Part shown: in pieces, positions 7,044 to 28,536 of the stretch | How the letters are laid out: each line of letters starts with the position of its first letter | Position numbering within the stretch: position 1 is the stretch's first letter | Assembly (NCBI GenBank): GCA_019752015.1 | Contig: JAIEMQ010000037.1 | Span: 62,001-126,000, forward strand | Reading direction: 5' to 3' | DNA: 64,000 nucleotides | Source: Cyanobacteriota bacterium | GTDB taxonomy: Bacteria > Acidobacteriota > Vicinamibacteria > Vicinamibacterales > UBA2999 | The notes under the pieces: model-generated | Database searches by the model: none | Told to the model about the DNA's origin: nothing | Seen by the model: the letters and a program-made list of their open reading frames with translations, nothing else | Program-made: the position numbers and the translations under genes

Positions 7044-8300
7044 GTGCGCATCGGCATTCACACCTGGGGCAGTGAGGGCGACATCCGCCCGTTCGTGGCG
7101 CTCGGGGCCGCCTTGTCGCGCCGCGGACACGCCGTCGATCTGATCTACACCGAGATCGGCGAGCGTCGCTATGAAGCGGTCGCAACGTCGCTCGGCTTCA
7201 CCGCACGCGCCATTGCGTCGCCGGTGCTCGCCGATCCGCAGCGGATGGATGATCTCGGCTGGAAGCTGGTGAACACGCGCAACCCGCTCGAGCAGGGATT
7301 GATCATCAGCAAGGCATTGCTCGAGCCGATCGCCGACGTGGCGTACGAAGCCGCGCTCGAACAAGCGGCGCGATCCGATTTGCTGATCCAGCACTTCATC
7401 CTGCATCCGGCGCGGGCGGCCGCCGACAAGGCCGGCACGCCGCAGATCACCGTTACCTTCCAGCACATGATGACGCCGTCGCGATTCATTTGTCCGCAGG
7501 CGATGCCGTGCCTGGGCGAATGGGGCAACGTCCTCGAGTGGCGGCTCGCGCGTTTCGCGCTGAATCAAACGTTGTTGAAGGACGTGAATCGATTCCGGAC
7601 GCGAGCCGGTCTTCCCCGCTTCGCCGACCTCGCGCTCGATGCATGGCCGTCGCATCGGCTCAACCTGCTCGCGTCGAGTCCGGCGTTTCTCGATCGTCCG
7701 TCCGACTGGCCGGCCTGGCATCAGCTGTGTGGATTTCTGGAGCTCCCATCGCACGAGCACGAATCGACATCACCCGATGTCGATCAGTTTCTCGGCGCCG
7801 GCACACCGCCGGTGTTCATGGGATTTGGCAGCCTGATGCCCGAGGAAGGATCGCGATTGCTCGAGACCGTCGCGGTGTTTGAAGAAGCGGCACGCATCGC
7901 CGGATGCCGCGCGATCATCCAGGCGGATGTGGAGAAGGCCGCGACCGATCGCATCCTTTACATCAAACGCACGCCGCACAAGCTCGTGTTCCCCCGGTGT
8001 GCCGCGGTCGTGCATCATTGCGGCGCGGGGACGACGCACGCGACGCTGCGCGCGGGCGCGCCATCGATCCCGGTTCCGCACGTGTCCGATCAATTCGCGT
8101 GGGCCGGCGAGCTCCGTCGTCTTGGCGCCGCGCCGCGGATGCTGCGGCGCAACCAATGGAGTGCGAACAAGCTCGCGTCGCGTATCAGCGAGGTGTTGCA
8201 TAGTCCGCGAATGAAGGAATCAGCGGTGGCGATGAGCGCAAGAATGAAGGACGACAACGGTCCCGAAACCGCGTCAGACTTGATCGAGTCGCTGGTCTGA
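7044..8300 (+). CDS. GT1-family glycosyltransferase (sterol/macrolide glucosyltransferase-like)
   Basis: 418 residues with the two Rossmann-like halves of GT-B enzymes. The N-terminus RIGIHTWGSEGDIRPFVAL matches the GT28/GT1 acceptor domain. The C-terminal half carries the donor-binding signature VVHHCGAGTTHATLRAGAP followed by VPHVSDQFAWAGELRRLG, with the His and Asp-Gln positions that bind the nucleotide sugar. It probably glycosylates a lipid or natural product in the cytoplasm. The start is GTG at 7044, four bases after the upstream gene, with which it likely forms an operon. A lipid acceptor would fit the membrane partner but is inference. Confidence 0.86.
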   Translation: MRIGIHTWGSEGDIRPFVALGAALSRRGHAVDLIYTEIGERRYEAVATSLGFTARAIASPVLADPQRMDDLGWKLVNTRNPLEQGLIISKALLEPIADVAYEAALEQAARSDLLIQHFILHPARAAADKAGTPQITVTFQHMMTPSRFICPQAMPCLGEWGNVLEWRLARFALNQTLLKDVNRFRTRAGLPRFADLALDAWPSHRLNLLASSPAFLDRPSDWPAWHQLCGFLELPSHEHESTSPDVDQFLGAGTPPVFMGFGSLMPEEGSRLLETVAVFEEAARIAGCRAIIQADVEKAATDRILYIKRTPHKLVFPRCAAVVHHCGAGTTHATLRAGAPSIPVPHVSDQFAWAGELRRLGAAPRMLRRNQWSANKLASRISEVLHSPRMKESAVAMSARMKDDNGPETASDLIESLV

Positions 8301-8330
8301 TTTTTGTAAGGCCGCACCCTAGAGGTTTGC

Positions 8331-8822
8331 ATGGTCACCAGGAGTGGACAGCGTTTAGCGCTGGTCTTCGTTTTTCTGGCCGGTTTCATCACCTTTGGCG
8401 CCATTGGCGCGTCGGCACAGTCCTCTATTAACTTCAACGGCGGCGCGTCGATCGATCCCACGCAGGTCTATGCGGGCGTCTCGTGGGAGTCGCCGGACAT
8501 TGGCGGCCGGTTCCGGCTGCGACCCGGAATCGATGGCGGTTTTGGCGACAACCTGCGGCTCGGCACCATCAACATCGATCTGATCGTGAAATTTCCGTTG
8601 GGGACGACGGGATGGATGTTAATTCAGGGCGGCGGGCCGGCCATCAGCGTGTCGAAATTCACGAGCGAGTTGGGCGATTCAAAGCGCGAGCTGCACGCCG
8701 GCGGCAGCTATCTGTTCGGCTTTCAACACGACAACGGCTTCTTCACCGAGTTCCGCGTCGGCGGCGGCGGCTTCGTGCCGCAACTGAAGATCGGCGTCGG
8801 CTGGGCCGTCGAGATCAAATAG
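8331..8822 (+). CDS. Small exported protein, probable outer-membrane beta-barrel
   Basis: 163 residues. An N-terminal signal peptide (about residues 1-33, ending GASA before QSSINFNGG) is followed by alternating hydrophobic/polar strands rich in Gly and aromatic residues (VSWESPDIGGRFRLRPGID, LFGFQHDNGFFTEFRVGGG). This looks like a small beta-barrel of the OmpW/PagL-like size class; I do not recognise a named family. It lies 30 bp after the glycosyltransferase. The stop codon is immediately followed by the left inverted repeat of the GxxExxY unit. Confidence 0.72.
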   Translation: MVTRSGQRLALVFVFLAGFITFGAIGASAQSSINFNGGASIDPTQVYAGVSWESPDIGGRFRLRPGIDGGFGDNLRLGTINIDLIVKFPLGTTGWMLIQGGGPAISVSKFTSELGDSKRELHAGGSYLFGFQHDNGFFTEFRVGGGGFVPQLKIGVGWAVEIK

Positions 8823-8863
8823 TCATCCACAGATTACGCAGATTTCACAGATTGATCGGTACG

Positions 8864-8997
8864 CCCGCGAGGCGGACGTAGTCCGCCGGGCACGGTAAAC
8901 GATCCGTGAATTCGAGAGACAGGTCCGCTCTGTAGTCTCTTGAATTCGCGGATCGTTTGTCGTGCCACGCGCCGGGCTCCGCCCGGCGCTCGCGGGC
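8864..8997 (+). repeat. 134-bp direct repeat, copy 1 (internally palindromic)
   Basis: This copy is 129/134 identical to 9496-9629. Each copy is a nest of inverted repeats: an outer pair around cggatcgttt and its complement, and an inner pair gaattc...gaattc flanking agagac/gtctct. A separate hairpin, gccgggctccgcccggc, lies at its right end. The copy ends on the base before the stop codon of the GxxExxY gene. Confidence 0.85.
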
Positions 8998-9377
8998 TTA
9001 TCCCCACACCAATCGCTGATATTGCAGGCTTGTCGCGCCGAAGTTGATCAGCAGGCCGCGTCTGATCCGAGATGCCTTGAGATAGTTGAGCAGCTGAGCG
9101 GCTTCGACGTTGCCCATTGCGCTCAGCGCTTTGACTTCGACAATGACGCCGCCGAAGCAAATGAAGTCGACGTAATAGTCAGTCGGCAGAAGATGCCGCT
9201 TGTAGTGGATGGGCAGCTGCACTTCGCGCTGAAAGACAATGCCGCGCTCCGCGAACTCGATCGGCAGTGCAACCTTGTAGACCTTTTCGAGGAATCCGCA
9301 TCCAAGTTCGGTATGGACCGCCATCGAAGCGCCGATGATGCGATATGTCTCAGGGTCGCGCGTTCATCTGTCGTCAT
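8998..9377 (-). pseudogene. GxxExxY protein gene, frameshifted near its start
   Basis: From ATG 9324 the frame encodes 108 residues with the family signature: AVHTELGCGFLEKVY (the G-x-x-E-x-x-Y core), IHYKRHLLPTDYYVDF, VIVEVKA and a C-terminal FGATSLQYQRLVWG. Homologues usually begin about 20 residues earlier with an acidic stretch and RIIGAAMAVH. Here MTTDER is encoded from ATG 9377 in one frame and DPETYRIIGAS in another. Removing two bases from the CGCGCG run near 9359-9364 joins them into a normal N-terminus. So this is either a young pseudogene, a sequencing indel, or a protein restarted at 9324. The function of the family is not established; it often occurs as multi-copy paralogues. Confidence 0.75.
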
Positions 9378-9495
9378 GCGGCGGGATCCTGCATTCGCGG
9401 TACCGCGGGCTTTTGCGCGGATATCCGCACAAAGTCGTGTCGGTGAACGCAACAAATGCTACGCACAGCCCGTGATCGCGCCGCAACATCTGCGA

Positions 9496-9629
9496 CCCGC
9501 GAGGCGGACGTAGTCCGCCGGGCACGGCAAACGATCCGTGAATTCGAGAGACGGGTCCGTTCTGTAGTCTCTCGAATTCGCGGATCGTTTGCCGTGCCAC
9601 GCGCCGGGCTCCGCCCGGCGCTCGCGGGC
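9496..9629 (+). repeat. 134-bp direct repeat, copy 2
   Basis: Same orientation as copy 1 with five substitutions. Three of them (t/c near 9528, 9574 and 9592) give better pairing in the hairpin arms of this copy, so it looks like the less decayed version. Confidence 0.85.
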
Positions 9630-9674
9630 CTCGTCGCGCGAAACGCGTTTCAATCTGTGGAATCTGTGTAATCT

Positions 9675-10169
9675 GTGGATGTGAAAAGACAGCGGACTTT
9701 CGAGTGGGACGAAGCGACCGCCTTCTGGCATCGCGCTCAGGGCAAATCAGGTCTTGAGCTTCTGCGGATGGCGATCGCCGGCGAGCTGCCTCCCCCGCCG
9801 ATGGCGATGCTGATGGACATCCGCCTCACGCAGATCGAAAAAGGCAAGGCCACCTTCACCGGCACGCCGCAGGAGTTCCACTACAACCCGCTCGGCACCG
9901 TGCACGGCGGCTACGGCGCCACGCTGCTCGCCTCCGCCACGGGCTGCGCCGTCCACAGCACGCTCGATCCCGGCGACATCTACACGACGCTCGAATTCAA
10001 GATCAACTTCATGCGCGCGTTGACGCACGAGACGGGCATCGTGCAAGGAATTGGAACGGTGATAAGCGCCACGCGCACGACCGCGGTGGCTGAGGGAAGA
10101 ATCGTTGATGGCGAAGGCAAGCTGTATGCCTTCGCCACCACGACGTGTGTGATTCGACGCGCCCAGTAA
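9675..10169 (+). CDS. PaaI-family hot-dog thioesterase
   Basis: About 164 residues, the usual size. A hot-dog fold hydrolysing acyl- or aryl-CoA thioesters is indicated by FHYNPLGTVHGGYGATLLASATGCAVHSTL, where HGG-x-x-ATLLASATG carries the catalytic region of the 4HBT/PaaI group, and by YTTLEFKINFMRALTHETG. Start candidates are GTG 9675 and GTG 9681; both lie in or at the edge of the right inverted repeat of the GxxExxY unit, and no clear ribosome-binding site precedes either. The substrate is unknown. Confidence 0.85.
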   Translation: MDVKRQRTFEWDEATAFWHRAQGKSGLELLRMAIAGELPPPPMAMLMDIRLTQIEKGKATFTGTPQEFHYNPLGTVHGGYGATLLASATGCAVHSTLDPGDIYTTLEFKINFMRALTHETGIVQGIGTVISATRTTAVAEGRIVDGEGKLYAFATTTCVIRRAQ

Positions 10170-10196
10170 GTCTGAGCCGTCTGTGCCTTCTGCGGC

Positions 10197-11474
10197 CTAC
10201 TTCTTCACGTACCGCTGCAGCTTGTGCGGCCCGACTTCGGCGCCGTAGATGATGCCGTCCTTGTCGACGACCACACCTTCCGCAGCGAGCGTGCCGCCCG
10301 GCGGGCGGCTGCCGTCGGCCATCTTCGCCGTGACCTTGCCGTCGACCATTTCGTAGGTCAGGCCGTTGTGCGACGGATCGGGAATGAACGCGATCACCTT
10401 GCCGTCCTTCGCGCTGCCGATGCGGATGCCGCGCTTCCACTGATAGTGCGCCGGGTTGACCGATCCCGACTCCGAATCGGCGCCGTAGATCATGTCGTTC
10501 TTGTCGATGTAGATCCCGCTCAGGCGGCTGAACTGATACCACGTGTCGGTCGTGGCGAACGTCTTCGGATCGAGGATCTGAATGCGGTTGTTCGAGCGAT
10601 CGGCGACGAACAGGCGGCCGCGTGAATCGAATGCGAGGCTGTGCGGCTGATCGAACTCGCCCTGCAGGCCGGTGCCCTTCTTGCCGAACTGCCTGATGAA
10701 CTTGCCGCTCTTGTCGAACAGGATCAAACGCGAGTTCGCGCCGCCGTGTCCCTCGGCCACGAGGATGTCGCCGTTCGGATACGTGATGACGTCATTCGGC
10801 TGATAGAACGACGCGGGATCTTCCGCATCAGCGCCCGCGGGGTTGCCGCCCGGCTTGCCGAGCGTCAGCAGCAGCTTGCCTTCAGGGCTGAACTTGAACA
10901 CCTGGTGGCCGACGACCTTCTCCGGCTTCGGCGGCAGCGGCGCATCGGCGGGCTGGCCCGGACGGCGACGGGGCAGGTTGTCGTTGCCGTCGGTCACCCA
11001 GATGTTGCCGTCGCGATCGACGTGGATGCCGTGCGGGAACACCATCATGCCGGCGCCGAAGCTCGTGACGAGCTTCCCGGTCGAATCAAACTTCAGGACC
11101 GGGTTGAAGTCCGACATCTTGCCGGCGGTTGCGTCCCAGCACGAGTTGGTCGACACCGGCGCGCCGCCCTGCGGATTCGGCCGCGTGCCGCAGCGCTCGG
11201 CGACCCAGATCGACTTGCCGTCCTTGTCGACCTCGACGGCGCTCGTTGAGCCCCATTCGCGGCCGGCGGGCAGCTTCGCCCAGCCTTCAATCGTGTTGTA
11301 GGGATTCGGCGCGTCGTTGACCGGCGGCGCCTTCATCCATTCGCCCGTCGCCGGTGCCTGCGCCCCGCCCCCGCCCTGAGCGAAGTCGAAGGGCTGGGCG
11401 AACGTGCCGCCACTCAACAATCCCAACGCCACCACGCCGGCGGCGGTCAAACTCACTCGAATTGCACGTCCCAT
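10197..11474 (-). CDS. Exported NHL-repeat six-bladed beta-propeller protein
   Basis: 425 residues with a signal peptide (cleavage probably after the first ~26 residues, near GGTFA/QPFDF). The body is made of NHL-type blades, visible as repeated 'G-x-D-x-x-G-N-I-x-V-T-D' blocks: VDRDGNIWVTDGND, GDILVAEGHGG, DSRGRLFVADRSNNRIQILD, KDGIIYGAEVGPHKLQRY. This resembles peptidyl-alpha-hydroxyglycine lyase-like propellers common in acidobacteria, but enzymatic residues cannot be judged by eye. It is periplasmic or secreted. It diverges from the FmdB gene across a GC-rich inverted repeat. Confidence 0.87.
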   Translation of the reverse strand: MGRAIRVSLTAAGVVALGLLSGGTFAQPFDFAQGGGGAQAPATGEWMKAPPVNDAPNPYNTIEGWAKLPAGREWGSTSAVEVDKDGKSIWVAERCGTRPNPQGGAPVSTNSCWDATAGKMSDFNPVLKFDSTGKLVTSFGAGMMVFPHGIHVDRDGNIWVTDGNDNLPRRRPGQPADAPLPPKPEKVVGHQVFKFSPEGKLLLTLGKPGGNPAGADAEDPASFYQPNDVITYPNGDILVAEGHGGANSRLILFDKSGKFIRQFGKKGTGLQGEFDQPHSLAFDSRGRLFVADRSNNRIQILDPKTFATTDTWYQFSRLSGIYIDKNDMIYGADSESGSVNPAHYQWKRGIRIGSAKDGKVIAFIPDPSHNGLTYEMVDGKVTAKMADGSRPPGGTLAAEGVVVDKDGIIYGAEVGPHKLQRYVKK

Positions 11475-26731: not shown

Positions 26732-27475
26732 ATGATTCGTTTGATCCAATTCATTGGTCTGGTCGGATTCACCGCGATTTTGGCCGGGCAATCCGTGGAA
26801 CAAACCACCGAAGGCACACGCCCGGCAGCGGCGCTCGTCGCCCGGTTCGACGGGCTCGGCACGGGTTTCGAGGGGCCGCAGGGTTCGGCGACGCTGAGAA
26901 ATCCGTCTGACAACTCACTCGCCGTCGGTCCCGATCACATCGTCCAGACGGTGAATTCGCGCATGGCGATCTTCACCAAGCGCGGCTCGCGCTTCAAGGA
27001 AACCGGGCGCGTGTTGTACGGCCCGGTGAACACCAACAACGTGTTCCGCAACTTCGGCGGCCCACCTTCGCCCGACGGGCTACGGCGGGCAAGCACGTGC
27101 GAAGCGCGCAACAACGGCGACGCCGTGGTTCGTTACGACCAGCTCGCGAATCGATGGTTAATCGTCATGCCGATCTTTTCGCGCGCTGCGGAGCGGCCCG
27201 ATCAACCGCCGGTGTGGACCGCACGCGCGGCCGCATATGAAAGCCCCGTCGGGCGCGCGGAACAGCCGGGCAAACCGGAGGCTCTGTTTCAACCTCAGGC
27301 ACCTCAGGCACCTCAGGCACCTCAGGCACCTCAGGCACCCCAGGCACCCACGCACCCCAGGCACCCCAAGCACCCCAGGCACCCCAGGCACCCCAGGCAC
27401 CCCAGGCACCCCAGGCACCCCAGCCACCTCAGGCACCAGCGTCGAAAGGGCCTTATTCAATCTGCTACGCGCTGA
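26732..27475 (+). pseudogene. Secreted propeller-like protein, N-terminal part (frameshifted)
   Basis: Starts MIRLIQFIGLVGFTAILA (signal peptide), then the conserved blocks NSLAVGPDHIVQTVNSRMAIF and EARNNGDAVVRYDQLANRWLIVMPIF typical of a large secreted acidobacterial protein family without a name that I know. The frame enters a minisatellite coding (Gln-Ala-Pro)n and, after 27349, slips into Arg-His-Pro and a stop at 27475. Inserting one C near 27347-27350 restores QAP and continues into the rest of the protein, which lies in the next frame (to 28536). So these are two pieces of one gene. Confidence 0.78.
27296..27437 (+). repeat. 9-bp minisatellite, tract 1 (QAP-coding)
   Basis: About sixteen units of caggcacc(c/t). 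The first four end in t and the later ones in c. One unit is a variant (acgcacccc at 27350) that has lost its first C, so all later units are read one base out of phase. Confidence 0.92.
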
Positions 27476-28536
27476 GCGTCAGTGATGACCCGTCAGGCGC
27501 GTACTACCGGTACGAGTTCCTTCGTCCGTTATTCCCTGACTACCCACGTCCGGCGATCTGGCGCGACGGCTATTACGTTCCGAGCAGTACCGGCGACGAA
27601 GTGATCGAGAAGCACGCCTGCGTTGTCGAACGCGACGCGATGCTGAAAGGCCGTCCCGCGCGCGAGCAGTGCTTCGTCATCAACGACGTCAACTTCCTGA
27701 ACAACGCCGATATTGATGGCACGCAGTTGCCGCCGCGCGGCGCGCCGAACGTGATGATGGCGGCCGGCGGCACCCAATTGAAGAAGGTGTTCGAGGACGA
27801 TGCGATCCTGACGTGGAAGATGTTCACGAACTGGGAGGACGCATCGAAGTCCCGCCTGGAGGGGCCCGAGCGCATCGCGGTCGCGCCGTATCACTACCTC
27901 TGCAATGGACAGCTGACCAACTGCGTGCCGCAGCCCGGCGTCGAGCGGCGGCTGGATGCGCAAGGCGACAAGATCATGTCGCGGCTCGTCTATCGGCGCA
28001 TCGGCAATCAGCAATCGATCGTCGGCGTGCACTCGGTGAATACATCGTCGAACGGCGGCGGCGTTCGCTGGTATGAATTCAGGATGGATTCGTCAGGAGC
28101 GGTGAAGCTGTTTCAGCAAGGCACCTACGCACCACAGGCACCCCAGGCACTTCAGGCACCCCAGGCACTTCAGGCACCCCAGGCACTTCAGGCACCCCAG
28201 GCACCTGCTTTCCGATGGATGGCGAGTCCCGCGATGGACAAGGCGGGCAACATCGGCATCGGTTATTCATACGGCGACGCGGCGACTTTCGTCGGCCAAC
28301 GTTTCGCCGCGCGGCGCGCCGGCGATCCGTTGGGCCAGTTGACGACTCGTGAAACAGTCCTCGTGCGGGGTGAGGCCGCGCAAACGTCCACCTTGCGATG
28401 GGAGGACTACACTCAGACCGCGATCGATCCGAGCGACGATTGCACCATCTGGTATGTTGGCGACTACTTGAAGAAGGACGCGGGCAGCTACTCGACTCGC
28501 ATTGGCGCGTTTCGAATCCCTGGGTGCACACCATGA
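27350..28536 (+). pseudogene. Secreted propeller-like protein, C-terminal part (frameshifted)
   Basis: Continuation of the gene that starts at 26732, one frame on; the first internal ATG is 27601. The segment reads ICYALSVSDDPSGAYYRYEF, FPDYPRPAIWRDGYYVP, QLPPRGAPNVMMA, RLVYRRIGNQQSIVGVHSV, GGVRWYEFR, FRWMASPAMDKAGNIGIGYS and ends TIWYVGDYLKKDAGSYSTRI-GAF. These blocks occur in the same order in intact secreted relatives (from memory). A second QAP/QAL repeat is inserted between FQQGTYAP and FRWMASPAM. The stop overlaps the start of the metallo-hydrolase (ATGA), indicating that the operon was once translated through. Confidence 0.8.
28135..28206 (+). repeat. 9-bp minisatellite, tract 2 (18-bp higher order)
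   Basis: Eight 9-bp units arranged as four copies of caggcaccccaggcactt (the last copy ends in cacct), coding QAPQAL repeats in frame. Confidence 0.92.

Follow-up and report, generated by a model that had tools for sequence, protein, structure and literature searches.

The locus described here raises the question of why a small gene should be packaged between inverted and direct repeats. It lies in the window, the whole stretch of 64,000 nucleotides that we analysed (G000:C13:62001-126000), which comes from a genome of 5.92 Mb in 82 contigs (the source genome), and the gene belongs to GxxExxY, a multi-copy family for which we know of no assigned role. We found that, at most loci examined and in many phyla, GxxExxY genes are enclosed by inverted arrays, each made up of some two to four tandem units of 8-11 bp (iterons), and that the sequence and period of these units track the protein lineage. 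Gene-less inverted pairs are dispersed, and the two classes that we counted are far commoner in genomes with the gene. Orthologous junctions differ in whether they hold a unit and in the class of that unit, and at one of them the gene and the ends change together. Taken together, these data suggest that the window unit is a member of a widespread group of iteron-bounded elements that are handled by a Cas4/RecB-like nuclease and are REPIN/RAYT-like in logic; we give this reading a probability of roughly 0.6.

Architecture of the unit in the window

The unit is bounded by a pair of 32-nt inverted repeats (8824-8855 and 9650-9681) that match at 30 of 32 positions (94% complementary). Inside them lies a pair of direct repeats (8864-8997 and 9496-9629) of 134 nt each, which are 96% identical and have palindromes nested in each copy. 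Between the direct repeats we found one small GxxExxY gene (8998-9363, minus strand), whose stop codon abuts the first direct repeat; the stretch upstream of the gene, from the gene to the right direct repeat (9364-9495, minus strand), is defined by position only. The first-pass annotation had described the inverted repeats, the direct repeats and the gene in this arrangement, and re-measurement, coordinates and a hidden Markov model (HMM) search agree with it.

The inverted ends are built of three tandem 9-bp iterons of the form CRCAGATTN. The left end (plus strand) has an outermost CATC followed by the iterons CACAGATTA CGCAGATTT CACAGATTG, and the right end (minus strand) has the same three iterons in inverted orientation. 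Each 134-bp repeat is a near-perfect palindrome that forms a cloverleaf, with a stem, two side hairpins and a central stem of about 32 bp; as single-stranded DNA, copy 1 (the left core) folds with a z score of -11.57 and copy 2 (the right core) with a z score of -14.51 as compared to 200 shuffles. Seven further open frames lie in or touch the unit, and none has a Pfam match at E 0.01. A search of positions 8300-10300 for known structured RNA (Rfam 15) gave seven matches with E values up to 1; all were far below the gathering score of their family, and we took them as chance hits to hairpins.

Inverted iteron arrays bracket GxxExxY genes in many phyla

For each locus, we scored the local alignment of the left flank to the reverse complement of the right flank against dinucleotide shuffles. 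The first set consisted of the best 80 of 155 GxxExxY loci by likeness to the window protein, from named genomes, and spans Bacteroidota, Planctomycetota, Acidobacteriota, Proteobacteria, Treponema, Armatimonadota, a cyanobacterium, others and two archaeal bins. Together with the seven loci of the source genome, 85 of 87 loci had both flanks, in a sample that is non-random and holds groups of close relatives. Inverted repeats bracket the gene at z>4 in 67/85 loci and at z>6 in 62/85 loci, as compared to 2/260 and 0/260 of same-size control intervals within the same loci; in direct orientation, z>4 was reached in 15/85 loci. When we repeated the comparison on 29 Acidobacteriota loci retrieved by HMM (the second set), z>4 was reached in 26/29 and z>6 in 25/29 (controls 0/95; direct orientation 7/29). 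The proposal of the first-pass annotation that GxxExxY genes and their flanking inverted repeats belong together is thus borne out in the source genome and across phyla, and its interpretation is partly supported: it appears right in essence but too local. Archaeal relatives of GxxExxY were seen in a Thermoplasmata bin (L112) and a Nanoarchaeia bin (L135), where binning error is possible.

At the 62 loci with an arm score of at least 16, the best period found by script was 10 bp in 32 loci, 9 bp in 24, 11 bp in 4 and 8 bp in 2. Protein similarity and iteron similarity are correlated over these loci (rho 0.55, 1,891 pairs), and also when only pairs across phyla are considered (rho 0.45, 1,493 pairs; P 0.002, which is the floor of 500 permutations, with phyla assigned by hand). 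The nearest relatives of the window protein, in Bacteroidota, mostly have period-9 units that end in ATT (CAGATT or CGAATT), as in the window; the more distant proteins of Planctomycetota and others mostly have period-10 units.

GxxExxY paralogues and gene-less units in the source genome

The source genome has seven GxxExxY genes, each distinct and single copy (normalised similarity 0.24-0.60). With 700-bp flanks, all seven have inverted iteron ends that score more than 3 above the best of 20 shuffles; with 300-bp flanks, six of the seven loci reach z>4, and at L052 the left arm is 334 bp away. The first-pass annotation had made its proposal turn on whether the other GxxExxY genes have repeats, and the six others do have inverted iteron ends, in variants of their own. 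The units and their periods are CACGGAGA (8), CACGAAGAA (9), CACAGATTA (9, the window), CACAGATTAAT and CACAGATTAGA (11), CRCAGAAGG (9) and CACAGAAA (8), where some periods were read by eye and that of L054 was read against the script's value of 11. The annotation had also suggested a search for the 134-bp repeat together with GxxExxY genes. A DNA search of the genome with the unit gave no further copy of the 134-bp sequence; the common signature is the iteron ends.

Iteron pairs also stand alone. The two-unit pattern ATCTGTGNNATCTGTG has 25 exact sites in the source genome and its reversed control has none. With up to 3 mismatches allowed, inverted pairs are seen for many of the hits, and such a pair often spans some 200-240 bp; arms without a partner in the locus were found on C8, C9, C18, C29 and C42 and at C10:54797. 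We read a total of 12 units that lack the gene and have an inverted iteron arm on either side. Repeats that occur on their own, without an empty-site counterpart at the window locus, had been named as a sign against the proposal: the first half of this describes what we found, but empty junctions exist too (see below).

We folded 11 gene-less units and the cores beside two other GxxExxY genes (on C4 and at C5:146783, each with a core at one end of the gene), and 11 of these 13 have a cloverleaf like that of the 134-bp repeat, with differing sequences. The folding script returned no cloverleaf for C61 and C10, and the twelfth gene-less unit, on C40, has iteron arms and no cloverleaf. A count of stem pairs in the cores, made to weigh RNA-level against DNA-level selection, gave 273 Watson-Crick pairs, 11 G-T pairs and 4 mismatches; for several elements the script used a side hairpin and not the central stem, and we base no conclusion on these numbers. 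As judged by eye, the stems are out of register in the sequence alignment of the cores (A2), and the cloverleaf reading is confined to the source genome.

At two loci, C22:2496-2752 (L041) and C3:30384-30652 (L015), two iteron classes are interleaved round one core, in the order CGCAGAG, CACAGAT, core, inverted CGCAGAG, inverted CACAGAT. A likeness of the outer bases ATCCACA to a DnaA box was considered and dropped, since it is absent in other classes (AACCACAGAG, AACCRCCGAT).

Co-occurrence of gene-less arrays with the gene

We counted sites of iteron patterns in 51 genomes, namely the 50 genomes with a first-set locus and the source genome. CRCAGATTNCRCAGATT is present in 20/51 genomes and CRCAGATNNACRCAGAT in 32/51, with up to 147 sites; the reversed pattern was found in 0/51 genomes in both cases. 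We then turned to 197 Acidobacteriota genomes of at least 90% completeness, 76 of which have TIGR04256, the GxxExxY family model. CRCAGATNNACRCAGAT is present in 29/197 genomes, which divide into 28 of the 76 with GxxExxY and 1 of the 121 without (G128; P 1.4e-12), and its reversed control has one site in one genome. CACAGAGNCACAGAG, of the CACAGAG class, is present in 27/76 genomes with GxxExxY and 6/121 without (P 4.9e-8); both statistics ignore shared ancestry. Where a genome has at least four sites, it carries the gene in 14/14 cases for CRCAGATNNACRCAGAT and 22/23 cases for CACAGAGNCACAGAG, and some low site counts will be the GxxExxY gene's own ends.

When arrays lie less than 900 bp apart, 20 of 22 neighbour pairs have the inverted order of the gene-bearing unit and the other two are on the same strand, as counted in four genomes (the source genome and three of those with sites listed in full). 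GxxExxY copy number ranges from 0 to 10 between species of genus g69. A tblastn search with the window protein (E 1e-5) matched 0 of 50,697 phage records and 8 of 72,556 plasmid records; the family therefore does not seem to travel mainly on phages or plasmids. In the survey of the 197 genomes with the family model, G171 and G189 have 19 and 21 GxxExxY matches.

Units present, absent or of differing class at orthologous junctions

The window unit fills its junction: the stop codon of its left neighbour, a small barrel gene, ends at 8822, and a thioesterase gene follows on the right. Five congeners (G001-G005) have the barrel and thioesterase genes adjacent, with at most about 200 bp between them and no GxxExxY unit, as the first-pass annotation had expected of an empty site; several of these junctions hold short palindromes of other unit classes, as read by eye. 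It had further suggested that the right repeat supplies the start of the thioesterase gene. By eye, the thioesterase ATG of the congeners falls on the GTG at 9681-9683, and position 9681, where this codon begins, is also where the right repeat ends. The repeat thus touches the start by one base, but the start is not replaced. In G036, which belongs to another genus of the same family, a GxxExxY gene in the same orientation follows the barrel gene (63% protein identity; the barrel proteins are 58% identical). The G036 unit has an inverted repeat of GATTACGCG-type units, and its locus does not include the thioesterase. The idea that the unit landed freshly at the window junction is weakened by this gene and by the congeners' palindromes of other classes.

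We read two further junctions in genus g69. At junction 1 (41 genomes searched, 30 loci read, classes assigned by eye), 8 loci are gene-bearing, 1 is degenerate, 5 have gene-less inverted hairpins and 16 have none. Two iteron types match two protein lineages in 8/8 of the gene-bearing loci (identity 73-100% within and 60-68% between lineages), and the E and Y of GxxExxY are present in all 8 proteins. The flanking DNA is not split by type (G181-G304 89.7%, G181-G300 88.7%), and the two iteron types need 3 changes on the flank tree. Most plain loci at this junction (L203-L215 and others) hold TCCAACC...GGTTGGA, a 7-bp inverted repeat round a likely ribosome-binding site, which is possibly a remnant and possibly a separate signal.

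At junction 2, 20 loci were fetched and 18 are readable on both sides. In 15 of these the genes abut, mostly with a TGATG or TAATG junction (by eye), 2 have GxxExxY units of different class and 1 has a CACAAAG hairpin. A unit is present here in G173 but not in G303, with which G173 is firmly paired on the tree of junction 1; insertion between packed genes is the simpler reading of this junction. The query genome of the junction 2 search, G248, has a further GxxExxY unit. Near a GxxExxY unit of G248, a gene-less unit (L185, 2803-2910) was observed whose arms turn up again at numerous unrelated positions among species of the genus, in places with 97-100% identity over 33-38 bp.

A predicted nuclease of Cas4/RecB-like fold

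The window protein matches TIGR04256 with 137.5 bits (cut-off 35) and PF13366 (PDDEXK_3) with 117.7 bits (cut-off 22). In an alignment of 55 sequences, E26, D66, K78, Q90 and Y94 are invariant and E76 is present in at least 90%, which gives the order E26, D66, E76xK78, Q90xxxY94; the invariance of residues 22-29 is partly due to selection, because these residues are part of the search peptide for the 80-locus set. We take QxxxY to mark the Cas4/RecB group. The structure model of the window protein has a predicted local distance difference test (pLDDT) value of 95 and a predicted template-modelling (pTM) score of 0.88. When we compared the model to the PDB with Foldseek, the best match was 4ic1 (SSO0001), presumably a Cas4, with E 6.7e-4 as the sole match below 0.001, followed by lambda exonuclease and other exonucleases. 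VIA-align gave a Z of 9.8 for 4ic1 and of 7.8 or less for the remaining rows, and a sequence search of the PDB with the window protein found no relative at E 10. The model and the conserved residues point to a PD-(D/E)XK nuclease of Cas4/RecB-like fold.

Going upstream from the nuclease domain of the window copy as far as the nearest stop, we found no in-frame ATG, GTG, TTG or CTG. There is an internal ATG at 9324; the ATG at 9377 is out of frame, as a frameshift would leave it. A start-less frame was found in 3/87 loci, and the other six copies of the source genome have a start.

Proposed scheme and points against it

The scheme that we favour begins with the nuclease, which would recognise its own iterons. 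Extruded as a cruciform or folded as a single strand, the unit would present these iterons as a substrate by means of its cloverleaf core (in the source genome), and the nuclease could then cut or trim at the iteron hairpins. Host repair, replication or recombination would subsequently excise, copy or exchange the DNA between the inverted iterons, with or without the gene. Cas4/RecB-type enzymes process DNA ends, and because the nearest fold is of this type, cutting or trimming together with host repair seems the likeliest step, not DDE transposition. The scheme as a whole seems to us the likeliest: the type of the ends follows that of the enzyme, both are accompanied by gene-less units, and the window unit has no other recognisable gene.

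Several observations weigh against this reading. Some have to do with the repeats themselves. The ends fall below z>4 at 18/85 loci of the first set and 3/29 of the second. CRCRGAGNCRCRGAG, the class of the C9 paralogue, has 15 sites in the source genome versus 10 when reversed, in a control that is weakened because the reversed pattern can match inside period-8 arrays. Probably for the same reason, the reversed CACAGAG control hits 15 genomes, all of them GxxExxY carriers, so there is no clean control for this class. The CACAGAG class is also found in six genomes without a detected GxxExxY gene, including six sites in G136, and the neglect of shared ancestry bears on both co-occurrence statistics. 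The period-9 class CRCAGATTNCRCAGATT has 18 sites in G096 and 23 in G097, yet a different unit stands at the GxxExxY locus that we read in each (no search for further paralogues was made in these two genomes). Several CACAGAG pairs have the opposite order in G132, where they are about 35-60 bp apart, as do pairs in a few other genomes, and the two patterns are all but absent from Prevotellaceae-type genomes (no search was made for the class of these genomes).

Other points concern movement and the enzyme. At the window junction, descent from a family ancestor with loss in the congeners may fit as well as insertion, because G036 has GxxExxY after the same barrel gene. To explain which loci at junction 1 hold a unit, the flank tree calls for at least 7 changes, and no more than 3 of them are forced by firmly supported branches. 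No consistent target-site duplication was seen in the junctions read by eye (own genus, junctions 1 and 2), where short duplications could be blurred because the flanks are 80-90% identical; at junction 2 of G173, ACTGA stands on both sides of the unit. The window copy may be damaged, given that it has no in-frame start upstream of the domain, or may start at its internal ATG. Finally, the activity of the nuclease is predicted from fold and residues, its recognition and cutting of the iterons are putative, and we infer the mobility of the units and did not observe it.

Alternative explanations

The iteron palindromes could instead be host signals, such as terminators, recombination or Chi-like sites or nucleoid sites, that are read by the resident GxxExxY protein and co-evolve with it without being moved by the nuclease. 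The units at the junctions that we read sit right after stop codons, between genes, and the protein has few or no phage or plasmid matches. Its fold is Cas4/RecB-like, and RecB-type enzymes respond to oriented sites. We nevertheless consider this explanation unlikely: copy number varies widely between species of genus g69, a given junction may hold a whole unit or none, and each paralogue of the source genome has its own iteron variant, where one set of sites would be expected.

A second alternative is that the palindromes are moved by another, unrecognised enzyme, with GxxExxY as cargo or hitch-hiker. We know of no transposition chemistry for the family, the protein has only about 120 residues and no target duplication was seen; this alternative is still very improbable to us, since iteron type tracks GxxExxY lineage across phyla and in 8/8 loci at one junction, and the other open frames tested in the window unit have no Pfam match. 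Homing, in which the nuclease would cut alleles without the unit and repair would copy the unit in, agrees with presence and absence at orthologous junctions without evident target duplication and with the repeated occupation of the same junctions, but it would spread units at the same site only and is hardly to be expected where a single genome holds same-class gene-less units at numerous unrelated positions and differing classes occupy the same junction.

Comparison with known systems

Returning to iteron-bounded elements handled by a Cas4/RecB-like nuclease, we compared them to known systems. According to PMC3116915, RAYT/REPIN systems have a nuclease gene flanked by a repeat, inverted doublets of the repeat that are dispersed without the gene, and several single-copy genes with repeats of their own; they are also treated in PMC8266576, PMC2817692 and PMC3733652. 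GxxExxY genes are likewise flanked by a repeat that is dispersed as inverted doublets, and the source genome has several distinct single-copy genes, each with its own repeat. Membership fails because the enzyme is unrelated: GxxExxY is a predicted PD-(D/E)XK nuclease of Cas4/RecB-like fold, whereas RAYT is a Y1 HUH (IS200-like) transposase. In addition, the GxxExxY ends are arrays of 8-11-bp units as compared to a single short hairpin, and the elements occur in many phyla and in two archaeal bins.

Insertion sequences and miniature inverted-repeat transposable elements (MITEs) resemble the units in having terminal inverted repeats, gene-bearing and gene-less forms, and presence or absence at orthologous sites; they differ in that our ends are iterons, and no consistent target-site duplication was seen by eye in the junctions read. 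Insertion sequences have a DDE, HUH, serine or tyrosine transposase, none of which was found in the window unit, and unlike MITEs, most gene-less units read in the source genome hold a structured core and not a deleted gene copy. Homing endonuclease elements are confined to one allelic site, whereas iteron units of the same class lie at many unrelated sites. Cas4, lambda exonuclease and RecB share the fold and the order of conserved residues, but GxxExxY is a stand-alone domain bounded by its own iteron arrays. ERIC, RU and BOX are also intergenic palindromic units of 100-250 bp; we know of no linked enzyme for these and the like, in contrast to the iteron units, which are linked class by class to a nuclease gene.

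Each of the known mobile families that we compared has a defining feature that these elements lack, and the chances seem to us evenly balanced that GxxExxY represents a class of mobile DNA not described before, with inverted iteron ends, mobilisation by a stand-alone Cas4/RecB-type nuclease, enzyme and iterons that co-evolve in matched pairs, large numbers of gene-less followers and, in this lineage, a cloverleaf core that keeps its shape as its sequence changes. Among the titles listed, we found no paper on the GxxExxY family or the iteron strings, in a search of open-licence PMC text only, which is weak evidence of absence.

The link between gene and repeats would give GxxExxY a concrete hypothesis, that it acts on its own iterons, and would give the intergenic CACAGAT/CACAGAG-type tandem units of many bacteria a likely source. 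It would also set beside REPIN-RAYT another, independent example of such an arrangement, this one with an unrelated nuclease, and make it testable how end-processing nucleases become engines of dispersed repeats. The matched enzyme-iteron pairs form a natural series for the study of DNA choice by a minimal Cas4-like domain, for which G171 and G189 are good material.

Other tandem arrays in the window

A de novo scan of the window for further inverted iteron pairs gave 8 tandem arrays and 0 pairs, under an 800-bp limit that left the known unit unpaired as well, so that the lack of pairs carries no weight. A lone iteron-like array (GTCTGAGCCGTCTGTGCCTTCTGCGGCC) lies at 10170-10197, directly after the stop codon of the thioesterase gene and between convergent genes. 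Two 9-bp tandem arrays of the CACCTCAGG type, at 27289-27437 and 28129-28206, lie within open frames and were read as QAP-type repeats; the open frame that holds the first of them ends soon after the array, and the next listed frame begins at 27601.

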